DNA of 34,438 nt from Sphingopyxis sp. (GCA_030655355.1 JAURVS010000028.1:1-34438), one strand, 5' to 3'; positions 27,096 through 32,667 are shown, counted from the first letter of the stretch. The notes: generated by a model from the letters alone, not told the origin. A program made the numbers and translations.

Positions 27096-27160
27096 GATCG
27101 CCGTCGCCGTCCCATGACACTCGTGTGTTACCCGAATAAAACCCCTTGCCAAGCATGCGC

Positions 27161-27186
27161 TACAAATGTAGCACGCTACAAATGTA
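27161..27186. promoter_or_regulatory. Two tandem BlaI/MecI-type operators (TACAAATGTA x2)
   Basis: Perfect palindromes at 27161-27170 and 27177-27186, 16 bp centre to centre, each flanked GC...GC; match the TACA-N2-TGTA operator form; directly upstream of a BlaI-family gene. Confidence 0.88.
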
Positions 27187-27204
27187 GCGCATGAGGTGAG
27201 TCGC

Positions 27205-27579
27205 ATGTTATCCAGTTTGCCGCCGCGGGAACGCGAAATCGTCGATGTCCTTTATGAGCGTGGCGCCTCCACCGTGACCGAGATCGGCGAAGCGCTGTCC
27301 GACGAATTGTCGGGCTCGGCAATCCGCGCGATGCTCAAACGGCTGGAAGCCAAAGGCTTTGTCGCCCGCGAACAGTCGGACCGCGGTTTTGTCTACGCGC
27401 CGAGCGTGTCGGACAAGACGGCGCGCAAGTCGGCGCTGAGCCAGGTCGTGCGCGTCTTTTTCAACGGATCGGCGACGAGCGCGGCTGCTGCGCTGCTGGG
27501 CATGCAAGACGAGATGAGCACTGACGAACTCGACGAGCTGGAACAGATGATCGCGCGGGCGCGCGAAGGGAGAGCGTGA
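27205..27579 (+). CDS. BlaI/MecI/CopY-family transcriptional repressor
   Basis: LPPREREIVDVLYERGASTVTEIGEALSDELSGSAIRAMLKRLEAKGFVAREQSDRGFVYAPSVS; ATG at 27205 preceded by AGGTGA (the track gives a GTG at 27196). Confidence 0.93.
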   Translation: MLSSLPPREREIVDVLYERGASTVTEIGEALSDELSGSAIRAMLKRLEAKGFVAREQSDRGFVYAPSVSDKTARKSALSQVVRVFFNGSATSAAAALLGMQDEMSTDELDELEQMIARAREGRA

Positions 27580-29318
27580 TGCTGACCACCGCCATGTTGC
27601 TGGGCCTCGCCTGGAAATCGATTGTCGTCGCGGCGCTGACGCTGGGGCTGCTGCGCCTCGCGCGATCACGATCCTCGGGCGAGAGGTCGATGATCGCGCA
27701 TGCGGGGCTTATGGCGCTGCTCGCTTTGCCGGCCGCAATGCTGTTGCTGCCGCAATGGGCACCGCTTCCCGCGACCTGGTTCGCATCGGTCCCCACGCCG
27801 GTGGCACAAATGGCAGCAACAGGGGGATCGGCGATCGATCCGGCGTCCGCGACGGCTTCAGTCCCTGTCGCCGCGACCCATGCCGGATCGTCGCCGGTCA
27901 TTCTGTCGTCGTGGAGCGACCTTGCCCCCTTTCTCTATCTTGTCCCGCTCATATTGCTGTGCGGAGTGATGGCGGTTGCGGTGGTGCGGCTGTTCGGAAT
28001 GCGCGGGCGCGCCGAAATATTGGTCGAACGGTCGTGGCTGTCGGCGCTTGCCGAAGCGCAGCGGCGCATGGGGTTCAAGCATGGCACCGCGCTGCTCGTC
28101 AGCAACGAATTGCGCTCGCCGATCAGTTGGGGCGTGCTGCGCCCGACGATCGTCCTGAACCCGAAAGCGGTTGCCGCGGCGGGCGAGGCCGAGGCGATTA
28201 TCGCGCATGAACTGGCGCATGTCGCGCGGCTCGACTGGGCGAAACTGCTCGGCGCCCGCATCGCCTGCGCGGTCTTCTGGTTCAATCCTCTGGTGTGGAT
28301 GCTGGCGCGTGAAAGCCACCAGTTGCGCGAGGAAGCCGCCGACGATGCGGTGTTGATGGCCGATATAGACGGTCCCGATTATGCGACCTTGCTGGTCGGT
28401 GCGGCGCGGCACGACAATCAGGGCGTTTTGCTGGCCGCGCACGGCGTCGCGCCGGGCAAGGACAGCCTCAAGCGCCGCATCACGCGCGTTCTCGACGGCA
28501 GTTTGCGGCGCGGTCCCGCCAGCGCGAGCTGGATACTGATGAGCCTTGTGGTGCTTGCGGGCATCACTGCGCCGCTCGCCGCCTTTTCGGCGACGGCAAA
28601 GCCCGAAGCGGCGTCGGCCGTCCAAAGCGTTGTCGCTTCGACGGCCGCTCAGCGCTCCACAACGGTTACGTCGCAGTCGGCGGCCGTCGCCAAAAGCGCC
28701 GCCGACGATGATGCGACCGCCGCCGCCGCCACGTCGAAGGTGTTGAGCGCCGAGGAACTGGTGAGCATGCGTGCGGTCGGAGTGACCCCCGAGTATGTAG
28801 CGCAGATGCGCGAACAAGGCGGCGAAATGAGCGCCGACGACATCATCGCGGCCAAGGCGACGAACATCGATCCGGCCTATATCCGCCAGATGCGTGGCAT
28901 CCTTCCGGGCGCCGATTTCGACGAATTGGTCGGGGCAAAGCAGGTTGGCGTCAACGCAACCTTTGCCCGCGACATGAAATCGCACTTCCCCGATGTCGGC
29001 CTCGATGATCTGATCGCGCTCAAGGCGATGGGGATCGACTGTGATTTCGTCACCGACATGCAAAAGGCGGGCGTGAAAATTCGCGACGCCGAGGATGCGA
29101 TCGAACTACGCGCCACGGGCGGTTTTCGTCCCGTCGCCGCCCGCCGACAGGTGGCAACGCCGCGGGCGTTAGCGACCGCCCGGCAAGATGGCCGCGTTGC
29201 GACGGTCGATATGGAACGCGGCGTGATCGAGGCGCGTCGCTCCGACGGCCGCGTTGCCCGGATTGAAATCCCTGTAACGGCAGAACCACCGGCACCGCCG
29301 GTGCGCCCGAAAGGCTGA
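27579..29318 (+). CDS. M56-family (BlaR1-like) membrane metallopeptidase with C-terminal ~28-aa repeats
   Basis: Zinc motif HELAHVARLDW; FWFNPLVWMLARESHQLREEAADDAVL; hydrophobic segments; ATG overlaps the blaI-like TGA. Confidence 0.92.
   Translation: MLTTAMLLGLAWKSIVVAALTLGLLRLARSRSSGERSMIAHAGLMALLALPAAMLLLPQWAPLPATWFASVPTPVAQMAATGGSAIDPASATASVPVAATHAGSSPVILSSWSDLAPFLYLVPLILLCGVMAVAVVRLFGMRGRAEILVERSWLSALAEAQRRMGFKHGTALLVSNELRSPISWGVLRPTIVLNPKAVAAAGEAEAIIAHELAHVARLDWAKLLGARIACAVFWFNPLVWMLARESHQLREEAADDAVLMADIDGPDYATLLVGAARHDNQGVLLAAHGVAPGKDSLKRRITRVLDGSLRRGPASASWILMSLVVLAGITAPLAAFSATAKPEAASAVQSVVASTAAQRSTTVTSQSAAVAKSAADDDATAAAATSKVLSAEELVSMRAVGVTPEYVAQMREQGGEMSADDIIAAKATNIDPAYIRQMRGILPGADFDELVGAKQVGVNATFARDMKSHFPDVGLDDLIALKAMGIDCDFVTDMQKAGVKIRDAEDAIELRATGGFRPVAARRQVATPRALATARQDGRVATVDMERGVIEARRSDGRVARIEIPVTAEPPAPPVRPKG
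28743..29126 (+). repeat. Four to five coding ~28-aa repeats in the M56 protein C-terminus
   Basis: LSAEELVSMRAVGVTPEYVAQMREQGGE / MSADDIIAAKATNIDPAYIRQMRGILPG / ADFDELVGAKQVGVNATFARDMKSHFPD / VGLDDLIALKAMGIDCDFVTDMQKAGVK / partial IRDAEDAIELRATGG. Confidence 0.85.
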
Positions 29319-29384
29319 CGCCCGGACATTCGTCCGAACCCGCCGACGCCTAATCGAAACCCTGTTTGAAAACGCTGCTGCGGC

Positions 29385-29404
29385 GGCGAGCGACGACGCT
29401 CGCC
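29385..29404 (+). other. Perfect hairpin GGCGAGCG-acga-CGCTCGCC between M56 gene and next ORF
   Basis: 8-bp GC-rich stem, 4-nt loop, no U tract; lies just upstream of GGAGGAGG and ATG 29430. Confidence 0.6.
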
Positions 29405-29429
29405 CGGCGCACGGAGGAGGAGTGCCTCA

Positions 29430-30176
29430 ATGAATGCCTTGTTATTTGCCGGTGGCGCCGCGCTACTGTCGATCCTCGCCTTTTCAGTGCCGACGGCCGC
29501 CGCAGACCCCTTGGTCCTGAGCGATGTGCGCTGGGTTGCCGAGCCGGCCGGCGGAAAACAGGAAGCGCCGCGCGTGCGCATCCAGCACAAACAGTCGAAC
29601 AGCGATCAGACGCTCGACGGTTCGCGCGCCGATTTTGTGGAGGCGCAGGCTGCGTTGGGTCGCAGCACGGCGGGGCCGGTCAGCTTTACCGTGACGCATG
29701 ATGCGGGGACGCTGTCGTGTACGGGCAATTTGACGCGGGCGTTCGAGGGTAAGGGCGATTGTCGTTTCACCTCCGACCCCGGATTCGAGCACGGACTTGG
29801 CGAACGCGGGCTTTCGCCCGATCATCGCTCGACGTTGCTCGCGATGCTGATGGTCGATGCAACGATCGAGCTTGCCGACGGGCTGACTGCGGAGGGGGTG
29901 CGGCCGAAGGATGGCGAGGATCTGATCGCCGCGGCGGCGCTGGACGTGCGCCCCGACTATATCCGCGACCTCAAATCCGAGGCGCTGGTGCTGACCGACA
30001 TCCAGGATGCCATCGCGTGCAAGGCGCTCGGCGTCGACGGCGCCTATGTGCGCGTGCTCGCCGCGGCAGGTTACCGGAAGCTCAGCGCCGACGATGTCGT
30101 CAGCATGAAGGCGCTGGGCGTCACGGGCGACTATGCGCAGGCGATGAACCGCGCAGCGGGGAGGAATGCGAAGTGA
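29430..30176 (+). CDS. Secreted protein with three C-terminal ~28-aa repeats shared with the M56 protein
   Basis: Signal peptide MNALLFAGGAALLSILAFSVPTAAA; repeats GEDLIAAAALDVRPDYIRDLKSEALV / LTDIQDAIACKALGVDGAYVRVLAAAGYRK / LSADDVVSMKALGVTGDYAQAMNRAAG. Confidence 0.87.
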   Translation: MNALLFAGGAALLSILAFSVPTAAADPLVLSDVRWVAEPAGGKQEAPRVRIQHKQSNSDQTLDGSRADFVEAQAALGRSTAGPVSFTVTHDAGTLSCTGNLTRAFEGKGDCRFTSDPGFEHGLGERGLSPDHRSTLLAMLMVDATIELADGLTAEGVRPKDGEDLIAAAALDVRPDYIRDLKSEALVLTDIQDAIACKALGVDGAYVRVLAAAGYRKLSADDVVSMKALGVTGDYAQAMNRAAGRNAK

Positions 30177-32272
30177 TGCGTCTGGCGAGCCTGGCGGCGC
30201 TTGCCGCCGCACTATCGTCGATGCCTGCCATCGCACAGGACGCTTCTCCAACCGGCGATACGCCGCCGCCAGCGCCCGCCGAAGTTCCTGCGGGCGGAGG
30301 CAGCAGCGCAGCGCGACAGGTCTATGCGCCCGCAGACTTCGCGCGCTACGCGCCGAACAACGCCTATGACATGCTGCGTCAGGTTCCGAGCTTTCAAATC
30401 CGTGACAATGAAAATCTGCGCGGGCTGGGGCAGGCGACGGGCAATGTGCTGTTCAACGGCGAGCGGCCGTCGAACAAGGGCGACGACATGTACACCCAGC
30501 TCTCGCGCATTCCCGCGGGCAATGTCGAGCGGATCGAAATCGTCGATGGTGCGACGCTCGATATTCCCGGCCTGTCGGGCCAGGTCGCCAATATCATTTA
30601 TCGCGCCGACAGTTTTTCGGGGCAGTTCTCGTGGAAGCCCGAGTTTCGTGCGCATTACACCGATCCGCTGTTCACGCGCGGTGACGTGTCTGTGCGTGGC
30701 CGGTCGGGCACGATCGAATATGAGGCAGCGCTCAGCAACGACGATTCGGCGCGCAGCGGGGCGGGCGGCCCGACTTTGATATATGATGGTGCGGGCAATA
30801 TCATCGAACGCCGCCATGATGTGTGGAACACCCACTATGATACGCCAAAGTTGTCGGGGCGGATTACCTGGGATCCGGCGGGTGACACCGTCGCCAATCT
30901 GGGCGGGCATTATCAGCGTAAATATGACCGTTATTATGAGGATGGTTTGCGCACTGGGCCGGGCCTGCCCGACCGCGTCCGCACCGTTTATGAAAATGCC
31001 GACAGCTGGAACTATGAGGTCAGCGGCGATTATCAGTTCGGCCTCGGGCCGGGGAAGCTGAAGCTGATCGGACTGCGGCGGTTCAGCCATGAGCCCTATC
31101 GTCAGGAAATCATCACAACCCCCGAAGGCGGGATCGCGACCGGCGACCGCTTTGCGCAGACGGGCGATCTGGGCGAAACGATCGGGCGCGGCGAATATCA
31201 GTGGAAGATGTTCGGCGGCGACTGGCAGCTTTCGGGTGAGGCCGCATTCAACACGCTCGACAATGTCGCGTCGATCGCGGTGCTCGATCCATCGGGGGTG
31301 TTTGTCGACCAGCCGTTCGACGGCGGCACCGGCGGGGTGAGCGAGGATCGATACGAGGGGCTGCTGAGTTTCGGGCGCAAACTGACCGACAAGCTGAATT
31401 TCCAGATCATCGCGGGCGCCGAACATTCGACGATCACGCAGACGGGTATGAATGGCCTGACGCGCAGTTTCTTCCGGCCCAAGGGCTCGGTCTCGCTTGC
31501 GTGGACGCCCACAGCCGATTTCGACGTGTCGGTGAAGCTGCGCCGCCGCGTGTTGCAATTGTCCTTCTATGATTTTCTGGCGCGCGCTTTCCTGAACGAT
31601 GGCAATCAGAATGAGAGCAACAATGATCTGCGGCCCCAGCAGGACTGGACCTATGAGGCCGAGATCAACAAGAAGTTTGGCGCCTGGGGTTCGACCAAGC
31701 TCATTCTGATCTATCGCGACGTTGAGGACCGTGTCGACGTGATCCCGATCGGTACCAATGGCGAGGCAGTCGGCAATATCGCGAAGGCAAAAGCCGGCGC
31801 GATCGACTGGACGGCAACGATCAATCTCGATCCGGCAGGGATCAAGGGGATGCGGCTCGAACCGCGGATGCTTCTCCAGAAAAGTTCGCTTCGCGACCCG
31901 TTCACGGGCGAAAAGCGGCAGTGGAACGGTTTTACCGACACGGTGATCAGCCTTGGTCTTCGCCACGACATTCCGGCCAGCAACTTGGCGTGGGGCGGCG
32001 ATCTCGAATATGTGCATTATCAGCCCAACTATCGGCGTAATCAGACCGACAAGGTGTGGGAGGGGCCGGTCTGGGCATCGGTCTTTGTCGAACACAAGGA
32101 TGTGCTGGGCCTGACCGTTCGCGCGTCGATCCGCAACATCGCCAATGCCCGATCGAAGCGCGATCGGACGGCTTACACGGGCGTTCGCGGCGAGAGCCCC
32201 GTCAGTTTCGTCGAGGAACGCGACCGGCTGATCGGCCCCGTATTTTCCTTTTCAGTGCGCGGAAAATTTTGA
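30176..32272 (+). CDS. TonB-dependent receptor-like outer membrane protein
   Basis: Signal peptide MRLASLAALAAALSSMPAIAQ; plug-like DMLRQVPSFQIRDNENLRGLGQATGNVLFNGERPSNKGDDMYTQLSRIPAGNVERIEIVDGA; beta-barrel-like remainder with C-terminal Phe (FSFSVRGKF). ATG overlaps the upstream TGA. Confidence 0.88.
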   Translation: MRLASLAALAAALSSMPAIAQDASPTGDTPPPAPAEVPAGGGSSAARQVYAPADFARYAPNNAYDMLRQVPSFQIRDNENLRGLGQATGNVLFNGERPSNKGDDMYTQLSRIPAGNVERIEIVDGATLDIPGLSGQVANIIYRADSFSGQFSWKPEFRAHYTDPLFTRGDVSVRGRSGTIEYEAALSNDDSARSGAGGPTLIYDGAGNIIERRHDVWNTHYDTPKLSGRITWDPAGDTVANLGGHYQRKYDRYYEDGLRTGPGLPDRVRTVYENADSWNYEVSGDYQFGLGPGKLKLIGLRRFSHEPYRQEIITTPEGGIATGDRFAQTGDLGETIGRGEYQWKMFGGDWQLSGEAAFNTLDNVASIAVLDPSGVFVDQPFDGGTGGVSEDRYEGLLSFGRKLTDKLNFQIIAGAEHSTITQTGMNGLTRSFFRPKGSVSLAWTPTADFDVSVKLRRRVLQLSFYDFLARAFLNDGNQNESNNDLRPQQDWTYEAEINKKFGAWGSTKLILIYRDVEDRVDVIPIGTNGEAVGNIAKAKAGAIDWTATINLDPAGIKGMRLEPRMLLQKSSLRDPFTGEKRQWNGFTDTVISLGLRHDIPASNLAWGGDLEYVHYQPNYRRNQTDKVWEGPVWASVFVEHKDVLGLTVRASIRNIANARSKRDRTAYTGVRGESPVSFVEERDRLIGPVFSFSVRGKF

Positions 32273-32292
32273 GCGGCTAGGGTGGCCCGGTG

Positions 32293-32667
32293 ATGAAACG
32301 CCGCATCAAAATCTATTTCGACGGCGGGTGCCGCCCGAACCCCGGAAAGATGGAAACCGCCGTCGTGACCGGCGGCGCCGCGACGGTCGTGTACGATGCG
32401 GGGGTCGGCAGCAGCATGGACGCCGAGTGGCTGGCGCTGCTCGCGGCGTTGCGGCTGGCGCAGGAGTTGGGACTGAAGAATTTCGTGCTGCTCGGCGATG
32501 CCGCTGCGGTGGTGGCGCAAGCAAATGGCGCGGTCCCCGCCCGCGGCGGCGCGGCGGATCATCTTTCCACCTTCCACACATTGGTCGGCGAAGGACCGAT
32601 GCCCAGCGTGCGTCATATCAAGCGGACGCAGAATCTGGCGGGGATTGCGTTGGCGCGTGGCCGATAG
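32293..32667 (+). CDS. RNase H-like fold protein, possibly catalytically degenerate
   Basis: IKIYFDGGCRPNPGKME, MDAEWLALLAALRLAQELG, FVLLGDAAAVVAQANG, HIKRTQNLAGIALARG follow the RNase HI motif order. Confidence 0.75.
   Translation: MKRRIKIYFDGGCRPNPGKMETAVVTGGAATVVYDAGVGSSMDAEWLALLAALRLAQELGLKNFVLLGDAAAVVAQANGAVPARGGAADHLSTFHTLVGEGPMPSVRHIKRTQNLAGIALARGR

Follow-up and report, generated by a model that had tools for sequence, protein, structure and literature searches.

A conserved BlaI/M56 protease cassette in Sphingopyxis as a candidate signalling operon for an outer-membrane receptor-like protein

Introduction

What might a BlaI-family repressor and an M56 membrane protease sense and control when neither a beta-lactam sensor nor a beta-lactamase accompanies them? 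This question is raised by a cassette at positions 27160-32272 of a 34,438-nt stretch of Sphingopyxis sp. DNA (JAURVS010000028.1; hereafter, the window), which is a 34.4-kb contig of the draft genome GCA_030655355.1 (G000; 3.4 Mb, 476 contigs, approximately 85% complete). Named relatives agree with the assignment to Sphingopyxis. The cassette comprises paired operators, blaI, the M56 protease gene, a gene for a secreted protein (SEC) and a gene for a TonB-dependent-receptor-like outer-membrane protein (TBDR). An initial annotation had proposed an uncharacterised signalling system at this site. Here, we argue that the cassette is probably a self-regulated proteolytic signalling operon, in which BlaR1-like derepression of the outer-membrane receptor operates through a non-penicillin ectodomain.

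To our knowledge, BlaI/M56 pairs are common in Gram-negative genomes, and outside the beta-lactam and copper cases we know of almost no signals for them. No paper on this operon, on Sphingopyxis BlaI/M56, on the SEC family or on the matched-domain rule described below was found in the open literature; most subscription papers lay outside the search.

A four-gene cassette behind paired operators

The first gene encodes a member of the Penicillinase_R winged-helix family (85.4 bits against a cut-off of 22.6), and its stop codon overlaps the start codon of the M56 gene (TGATG). Downstream, the stop codon of SEC overlaps the start codon of TBDR in the same manner (TGATG at 30176). Thus, the gene layout given in the initial annotation holds. 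The start of blaI is probably the ATG at 27205, just 3' of a conserved ribosome-binding-like stretch, rather than the GTG at 27196.

The sequence TACAAATGTA occurs perfectly at 27161-27170 and 27177-27186. Only 0.15 matches of this type, with up to one mismatch allowed, are expected in shuffled windows, so the two operators reported before blaI exceed chance expectation. The full operator unit is CTACAAATGTAG, with 5-bp arms (CTACA/TGTAG), and four exact copies were found in G000, compared with approximately 0.08 expected per 3.4 Mb from base composition. A TACA-N2-TGTA type operator 5' of its own repressor gene is characteristic of BlaI, MecI and CopY repressors. A consensus promoter scan 5' of blaI returned no sigma-70-type site. 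CTTGC(C/A) lies a few bases 5' of operator 1 in almost all aligned cassettes, suggesting that the doublet sits where the downstream part of a promoter would be.

A scan of the genome collection, seeded by M56 motifs only, yielded 73 loci. BlaI, M56, SEC and TBDR stand in this order on one strand in 53 of them, and several others are cut by contig ends. This co-occurrence rules out random neighbours, a possibility that the initial annotation had left room for. The operator doublet precedes blaI in 62 of the 73 loci, with a spacing of 16 bp in 42 loci, 17 in 8, 18 in 9 and 19 in 3; 121 of 129 operator copies are identical to CTACAAATGTAG, and sites elsewhere in the genome precede a few genes. 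The downstream flank is common within Sphingopyxis, and the core is kept while flanks differ in Altererythrobacter, Tsuneonella, Novosphingobium, Sphingomonas and other genera.

SEC was detected in 48 of 60 Sphingopyxis genomes. Matches in the family were found in 13 of 201 genomes, some of them stand-alone SEC or M56 repeats only. Among 388 genomes of the class, the window's own copy was the only one, and the phylum sample contained none, its three distant matches being proteins full of TPR-like repeats.

Ratios of non-synonymous to synonymous substitution (dN/dS) against the close relative L137 were approximately 0.08 for BlaI, 0.15 for M56 residues 1-335, 0.19 for the M56 repeats, 0.19 for SEC and 0.06 for TBDR. 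All four genes are therefore under purifying selection outside the M56 linker and tail (dN/dS roughly 0.06-0.2).

An intact protease with a non-penicillin ectodomain

In BlaR1, the catalytic residues are H201EXXH, E242xxxD246 and R294 (PMC9834060). These map with equal spacing onto H210EXXH (H210-E-L-A-H214), E251xxxD255 and R303 of the cassette protease, which are invariant in 49 homologues. Both the HEXXH plus ExxxD zinc site and the membrane-embedded domain of M56 peptidases are present, and, as judged from the sequence, the metalloprotease catalytic set is intact. The membrane part of the AlphaFold2 model superimposes on S. aureus BlaR1 (8exr) with a template modelling score (TM-score) of 0.59 by target and a root-mean-square deviation of 2.9 A over 172 columns. 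Hydropathy indicates four transmembrane-like segments, and the presumed outer loop carries few charges; this pattern appears to fit the N-out/C-out layout of BlaR1.

The C-terminal part is different. Neither Pfam nor NCBIfam gave a transpeptidase or penicillin-binding protein (PBP) match there, and the NCBIfam model blaR1_generic covers only residues 119-308, the membrane and protease part (62 bits against a cut-off of 400). The C-terminal penicillin-binding sensor domain of BlaR1/MecR1 is thus missing, as first noted, and an ordinary DD-peptidase-like sensor is ruled out. Instead, the model (mean predicted local distance difference test score, pLDDT, 78) places a helical-repeat block of pLDDT 86-98 (approximately residues 391-512) after a disordered linker, with helix pairs beginning at residues 391, 419, 447, 475 and 504. 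The protease was originally described as ending in repeats of about 28 amino acids; the repeats are present, but they are followed by a short beta segment and then by a tail rich in proline (residues 517-579).

In Sphingopyxis sp. PET50 (L168:7983-9755), the M56 gene is seemingly frameshifted after approximately residue 330, and the remaining cassette is intact. Additionally, BlaI-linked M56 proteases at L075-L080 carry further ectodomains rich in 'GAxxMRxGA' helical stretches, possibly another sensor type.

The secreted protein as a relative of the sensor

By eye, SEC has a typical signal sequence. In its AlphaFold2 model (mean pLDDT 91), residues 29-115 form a beta domain and residues 117-247 form helical hairpin repeats. 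Pfam assigned no family to SEC or, apart from scattered weak matches, to 62 homologues, and a fold search in the PDB gave no match at E<0.001, the best ones having low TM-scores. Alignment of the protease-family and SEC-family profiles with hhalign paired repeats with repeats (probability 99.9, E 4e-31), indicating that part of SEC is a soluble relative of this ectodomain.

The two also occur together. Sixty-five of the 73 loci have a repeat-type M56 with SEC, and L168 has SEC with the M56 that looks frameshifted; a repeat-type M56 lacks SEC in only three loci, two of them at contig ends. Moreover, the M56 ectodomain of L181 and L193 is of the GIN/DUF2807 type (Pfam E 3e-16 and 6e-15, respectively). 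In L181, a secreted DUF2807 protein (E 6e-17) is the product of the first gene after the operators; it is approximately 40% identical to the M56 ectodomain of that locus. L198 contains blaI-M56, a DUF2807 open reading frame in another frame, which we take for the end of M56 after a frameshift, and then genes for a secreted DUF2807 protein and two TBDRs. No partner gene was found within the available stretch of L193. The two GIN loci with partners keep BlaI, the doublet and a TBDR, and no mismatched ectodomain/secreted-partner pair was seen among the loci examined. Given this joint change to GIN, the sensor ectodomain and its secreted partner seem to be exchanged together, as a matched set. Such kinship and joint change of type, as read from the sequences, go beyond the initial annotation.

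Based on these pairs, we tentatively suggest a modular design: a BlaR1-type protease would form an exchangeable matched pair with a freely secreted paralogue of its ectodomain (helical-repeat/helical-repeat or GIN/GIN), and an envelope or outer-membrane signal would set the receptor level through BlaI proteolysis; this generalisation is possible, if somewhat doubtful.

At L046, L047, L049 and L050, SEC-like secreted proteins stand alone, with longer arrays of repeats and without a nearby operator; those at L046 and L050 adjoin an aspartate-semialdehyde-dehydrogenase-like gene.

The receptor gene and its link to the regulator

The TBDR product, P0004, matches the Plug family (E 3.4e-9), and its profile aligns with the colicin I receptor in the plug region (E 2e-7). 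In TonB-dependent receptors, an outer-membrane beta-barrel comes after the plug; the C-terminal part of P0004, approximately 540 residues, has no Pfam barrel match, whereas the other cassette TBDR lineage matches OMP_b-brl_3 (E 1.2e-17). No clear TonB box was recognised by eye.

Homologues of P0004 are present in 130 of 201 family genomes, for the most part outside the cassette, and 20 loci with such homologues outside cassettes carry no operator. Cassette TBDRs form at least two deep lineages in the tree, one of them approximately 30% identical to P0004; some branches are long, which makes exact counts unsure. This suggests that the receptor was exchanged while the regulator stayed. In L181 (equivalent to L072; genome G011), TBDR is divergent from blaI-M56, and the doublet stands directly before TBDR. 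The lineage exchange, the divergent layout and the operator-free homologues together strengthen the link between blaI and the receptor.

Many operator-free P0004-type receptors (such as L092-L100) lie near clpP/clpX and trigger factor, and several adjoin a secreted amidase. In L171:10850-16542 and L176:10972-16582, blaI-M56-SEC is followed on the same strand by a GH16 glycosidase, a large TonB receptor and a tryptophan-halogenase-like gene. This cluster might point to a glucan ligand, but its two occurrences look like a single shared event.

Further operator sites

Five places in G000 contain CTACRNNYGTAG. Besides the doublet, these belong to a second blaI-M56 pair, to a secreted protein of the lumazine-binding-like (NTF2-like) kind and to an S41 peptidase. 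The cassette is also present in G040, where five sites likewise stand before the orthologous genes, and two Sphingopyxis genomes without the cassette (G118 and G172) have the blaI1-M56 site only. The lumazine-binding-like gene is present in 15 of 60 Sphingopyxis genomes, all with SEC (hypergeometric p approximately 0.02, uncorrected for kinship), and has an operator in 8 of 13 cases with upstream sequence. In G011, an operator precedes an M13-type peptidase, the family being assigned by eye.

No beta-lactamase or PBP adjoins any of the operator sites examined. Unlike BlaR1/MecR1, whose targets are a beta-lactamase or PBP2a, the G000 sites precede blaI/M56, SEC-TBDR, the lumazine-binding-like protein and the S41 peptidase. 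A role in beta-lactam resistance was rejected, as neither a PBP sensor in the protease nor a beta-lactamase beside the examined sites was found.

The S41 peptidase and the small lumazine-binding-like secreted protein with their operators are at L015:1-1034 and L014:342-905 (G000:C48 and C278). The second BlaI/M56 pair, L013:6297-8353 (G000:C274), has a single CTACAAATGTAG operator and an M56 ectodomain of another type; such a pair is also present in G040 and G118, and the BlaI/M56 pair of G172 adjoins the same kind of glutaredoxin-like gene.

Proposed mechanism

We propose by analogy with BlaR1 that BlaI dimers would bind both operators over the promoter and repress blaI-M56-SEC-TBDR. M56 would lie in the inner membrane, with the zinc site towards the cytoplasm and the helical-repeat ectodomain in the periplasm. 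A change there (a ligand, the envelope state, or SEC binding or loss) would activate the protease, which would then cleave BlaI; the operon would be switched on, and SEC and the outer-membrane receptor would be made. TBDR would be the main output and might take up a substrate. SEC could compete with the ectodomain for a ligand, bind and damp the ectodomain, or supply it with a ligand. The type of SEC goes with that of the ectodomain and not with that of TBDR, so SEC most likely acts as a co-sensor or negative-feedback partner.

Several observations weigh against this mechanism. Considering the downstream flank shared within Sphingopyxis, much of the co-occurrence there reflects vertical descent. 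In ten loci with blaI-M56-SEC, of which two lie at contig ends, no TBDR was detected, and SEC is missing from L071 and L185, where a repeat-type M56 stands between blaI and TBDR, so neither SEC nor TBDR is obligatory. Only two loci make up the GIN variant with partners, and one of them comes from a metagenome assembly and contains a frameshift. Furthermore, with a second BlaI/M56 pair that has the same operator, it is uncertain which repressor acts at each site. Overall, the signalling interpretation of the initial annotation is partly supported: the gene association and operators are conserved, a DD-peptidase sensor is absent and the neighbours are not random.

Alternative explanations

The additional targets raise the possibility that M56 senses wall or outer-membrane damage or a drug, and that the operon, the S41 peptidase and other secreted proteins form a repair regulon with TBDR as one output. 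The same operator before the S41 peptidase and the lumazine-binding-like protein (G000, G040) and before the M13-type peptidase (G011) agrees with this, and antibiotic responses are known for the BlaI/BlaR1 family. However, with no PBP-like sensor, no beta-lactamase or PBP beside the examined sites, extra sites that may belong to the second BlaI, and the outer-membrane receptor as the most constant target across genera, an envelope-stress or antibiotic sensor seems unlikely.

SEC and TBDR might instead be an outer-membrane pair, with SEC as a periplasmic or surface accessory to the barrel in uptake or export and the shared M56 repeats binding the same ligand or cell-wall element. Their gene overlap suggests coupled synthesis, and the additional beta domain of SEC, with its two invariant cysteines, has no counterpart in the protease. 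Nevertheless, L071 and L185 keep TBDR and a repeat-type M56 without SEC, several loci keep SEC without TBDR, and the SEC type tracks the M56 ectodomain (repeats or GIN) while the TBDR type varies independently, which makes such a pair rather improbable.

That SEC and TBDR are mere neighbours of a blaI-M56 regulatory unit, kept by descent without a functional link, would suit the Sphingopyxis flank and the many TBDR homologues elsewhere in the family, but is very improbable, because genera whose flanks differ retain the core order, TBDRs of different lineages occupy the same position, the operators of L181 precede a divergent TBDR and the GIN swap is paired.

Relation to known systems

The self-regulated operon proposed here belongs to a mechanism class that is already known (BlaR1/BlaI; PetP/PetR); the sensor, partner and target are new. 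With BlaR1/BlaI and MecR1/MecI (Staphylococcus, Bacillus licheniformis), the cassette shares a BlaI-family repressor, paired operators and an autoregulation layout, and its M56 protein shares a gluzincin protease with conserved catalytic residues, four transmembrane segments and a C-terminal domain facing the periplasm or outside (PMC9834060). In contrast, its ectodomain is of the helical-repeat or GIN type, and the operon includes a secreted ectodomain relative and an outer-membrane receptor.

In cyanobacteria, the BlaI-like factor PetR and the BlaR1-like protease PetP control plastocyanin and cytochrome c6 in response to copper (PMC7896320). Its hallmarks are repressor cleavage that depends on copper, and petE and petJ as target genes. 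This system resembles the cassette in its protein pair, its Gram-negative-type envelope and its targets unrelated to beta-lactams, whereas no secreted ectodomain copy or outer-membrane receptor target is described there (PMC7896320), and no plastocyanin or cytochrome c6 gene was noted in the cassette.

The cassette differs from Fec-type signalling in using a protease and a repressor, with no ECF sigma or anti-sigma gene in the conserved cassette; only a Plug domain, and no receptor signalling domain, was detected in P0004. In Fec-type signalling (FecA/FecR/FecI), an outer-membrane TonB-type receptor is coupled to transcription through an inner-membrane protein.

The cassette is compact and conserved and occurs in culturable bacteria; its operator is defined, its protease intact and its output gene clear, and it also encodes a soluble protein related to the sensor domain. 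If the proposed mechanism is true, it would provide a protease-based tie between outer-membrane receptor levels and an envelope signal, and a second route, besides sigma/anti-sigma relays, from the outer membrane to transcription. The matched ectodomain/secreted-partner rule would then be a handle for predicting partners of other M56 sensors.

Cassette features and minor observations

Table 1 Features of the cassette in the window, and GIN variant loci
Feature	Position	Strand	Evidence
TTGCCA, promoter-like (-35-like) element 5' of operator 1	27146..27151	+	Similar element in almost all aligned cassettes; putative promoter role
BlaI operator 1 (putative), CTACAAATGTAG	27160..27171		Motif scan; doublet kept in 62/73 loci
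BlaI operator 2 (putative), CTACAAATGTAG	27176..27187		16 bp after operator 1
blaI repressor gene, P0001, 124 aa	27205..27579	+	PF03965 E 4.7e-24
M56 (BlaR1-type) membrane zinc protease gene, P0002, 579 aa	27579..29318	+	PF05569 E 1.5e-28
Protease ectodomain, predicted periplasmic, helical repeats, residues 389-516, ~28-aa units	28743..29126	+	AlphaFold2, hhalign
SEC, secreted protein, beta domain and helical repeats, P0003, 248 aa	29430..30176	+	AlphaFold2
SEC beta domain, residues 29-115, invariant C97 and C111	29514..29774	+	Alignment, AlphaFold2
SEC helical-repeat domain, residues 117-247	29778..30170	+	AlphaFold2, hhalign
TBDR, TonB-dependent-receptor-like outer-membrane protein gene, P0004, 698 aa	30176..32272	+	Plug PF07715
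Plug domain of P0004	30305..30556	+	Pfam PF07715
GIN/DUF2807 loci	L181:7013-7567, L193:3-1643, L198:9498-10474

Two other classifications were discarded. For anti-phage defence, PADLOC gave no specific match and weak helix-turn-helix matches alone. A plasmid-borne module was rejected, as no match to SEC or M56 was found in 72,556 plasmid records.

A small RNase-H-like (RVT_3) gene lies at 32290-32667 of the window, 17 bases 3' of TBDR and outside the cassette; it is common to many Sphingopyxis loci and not to those of other genera.

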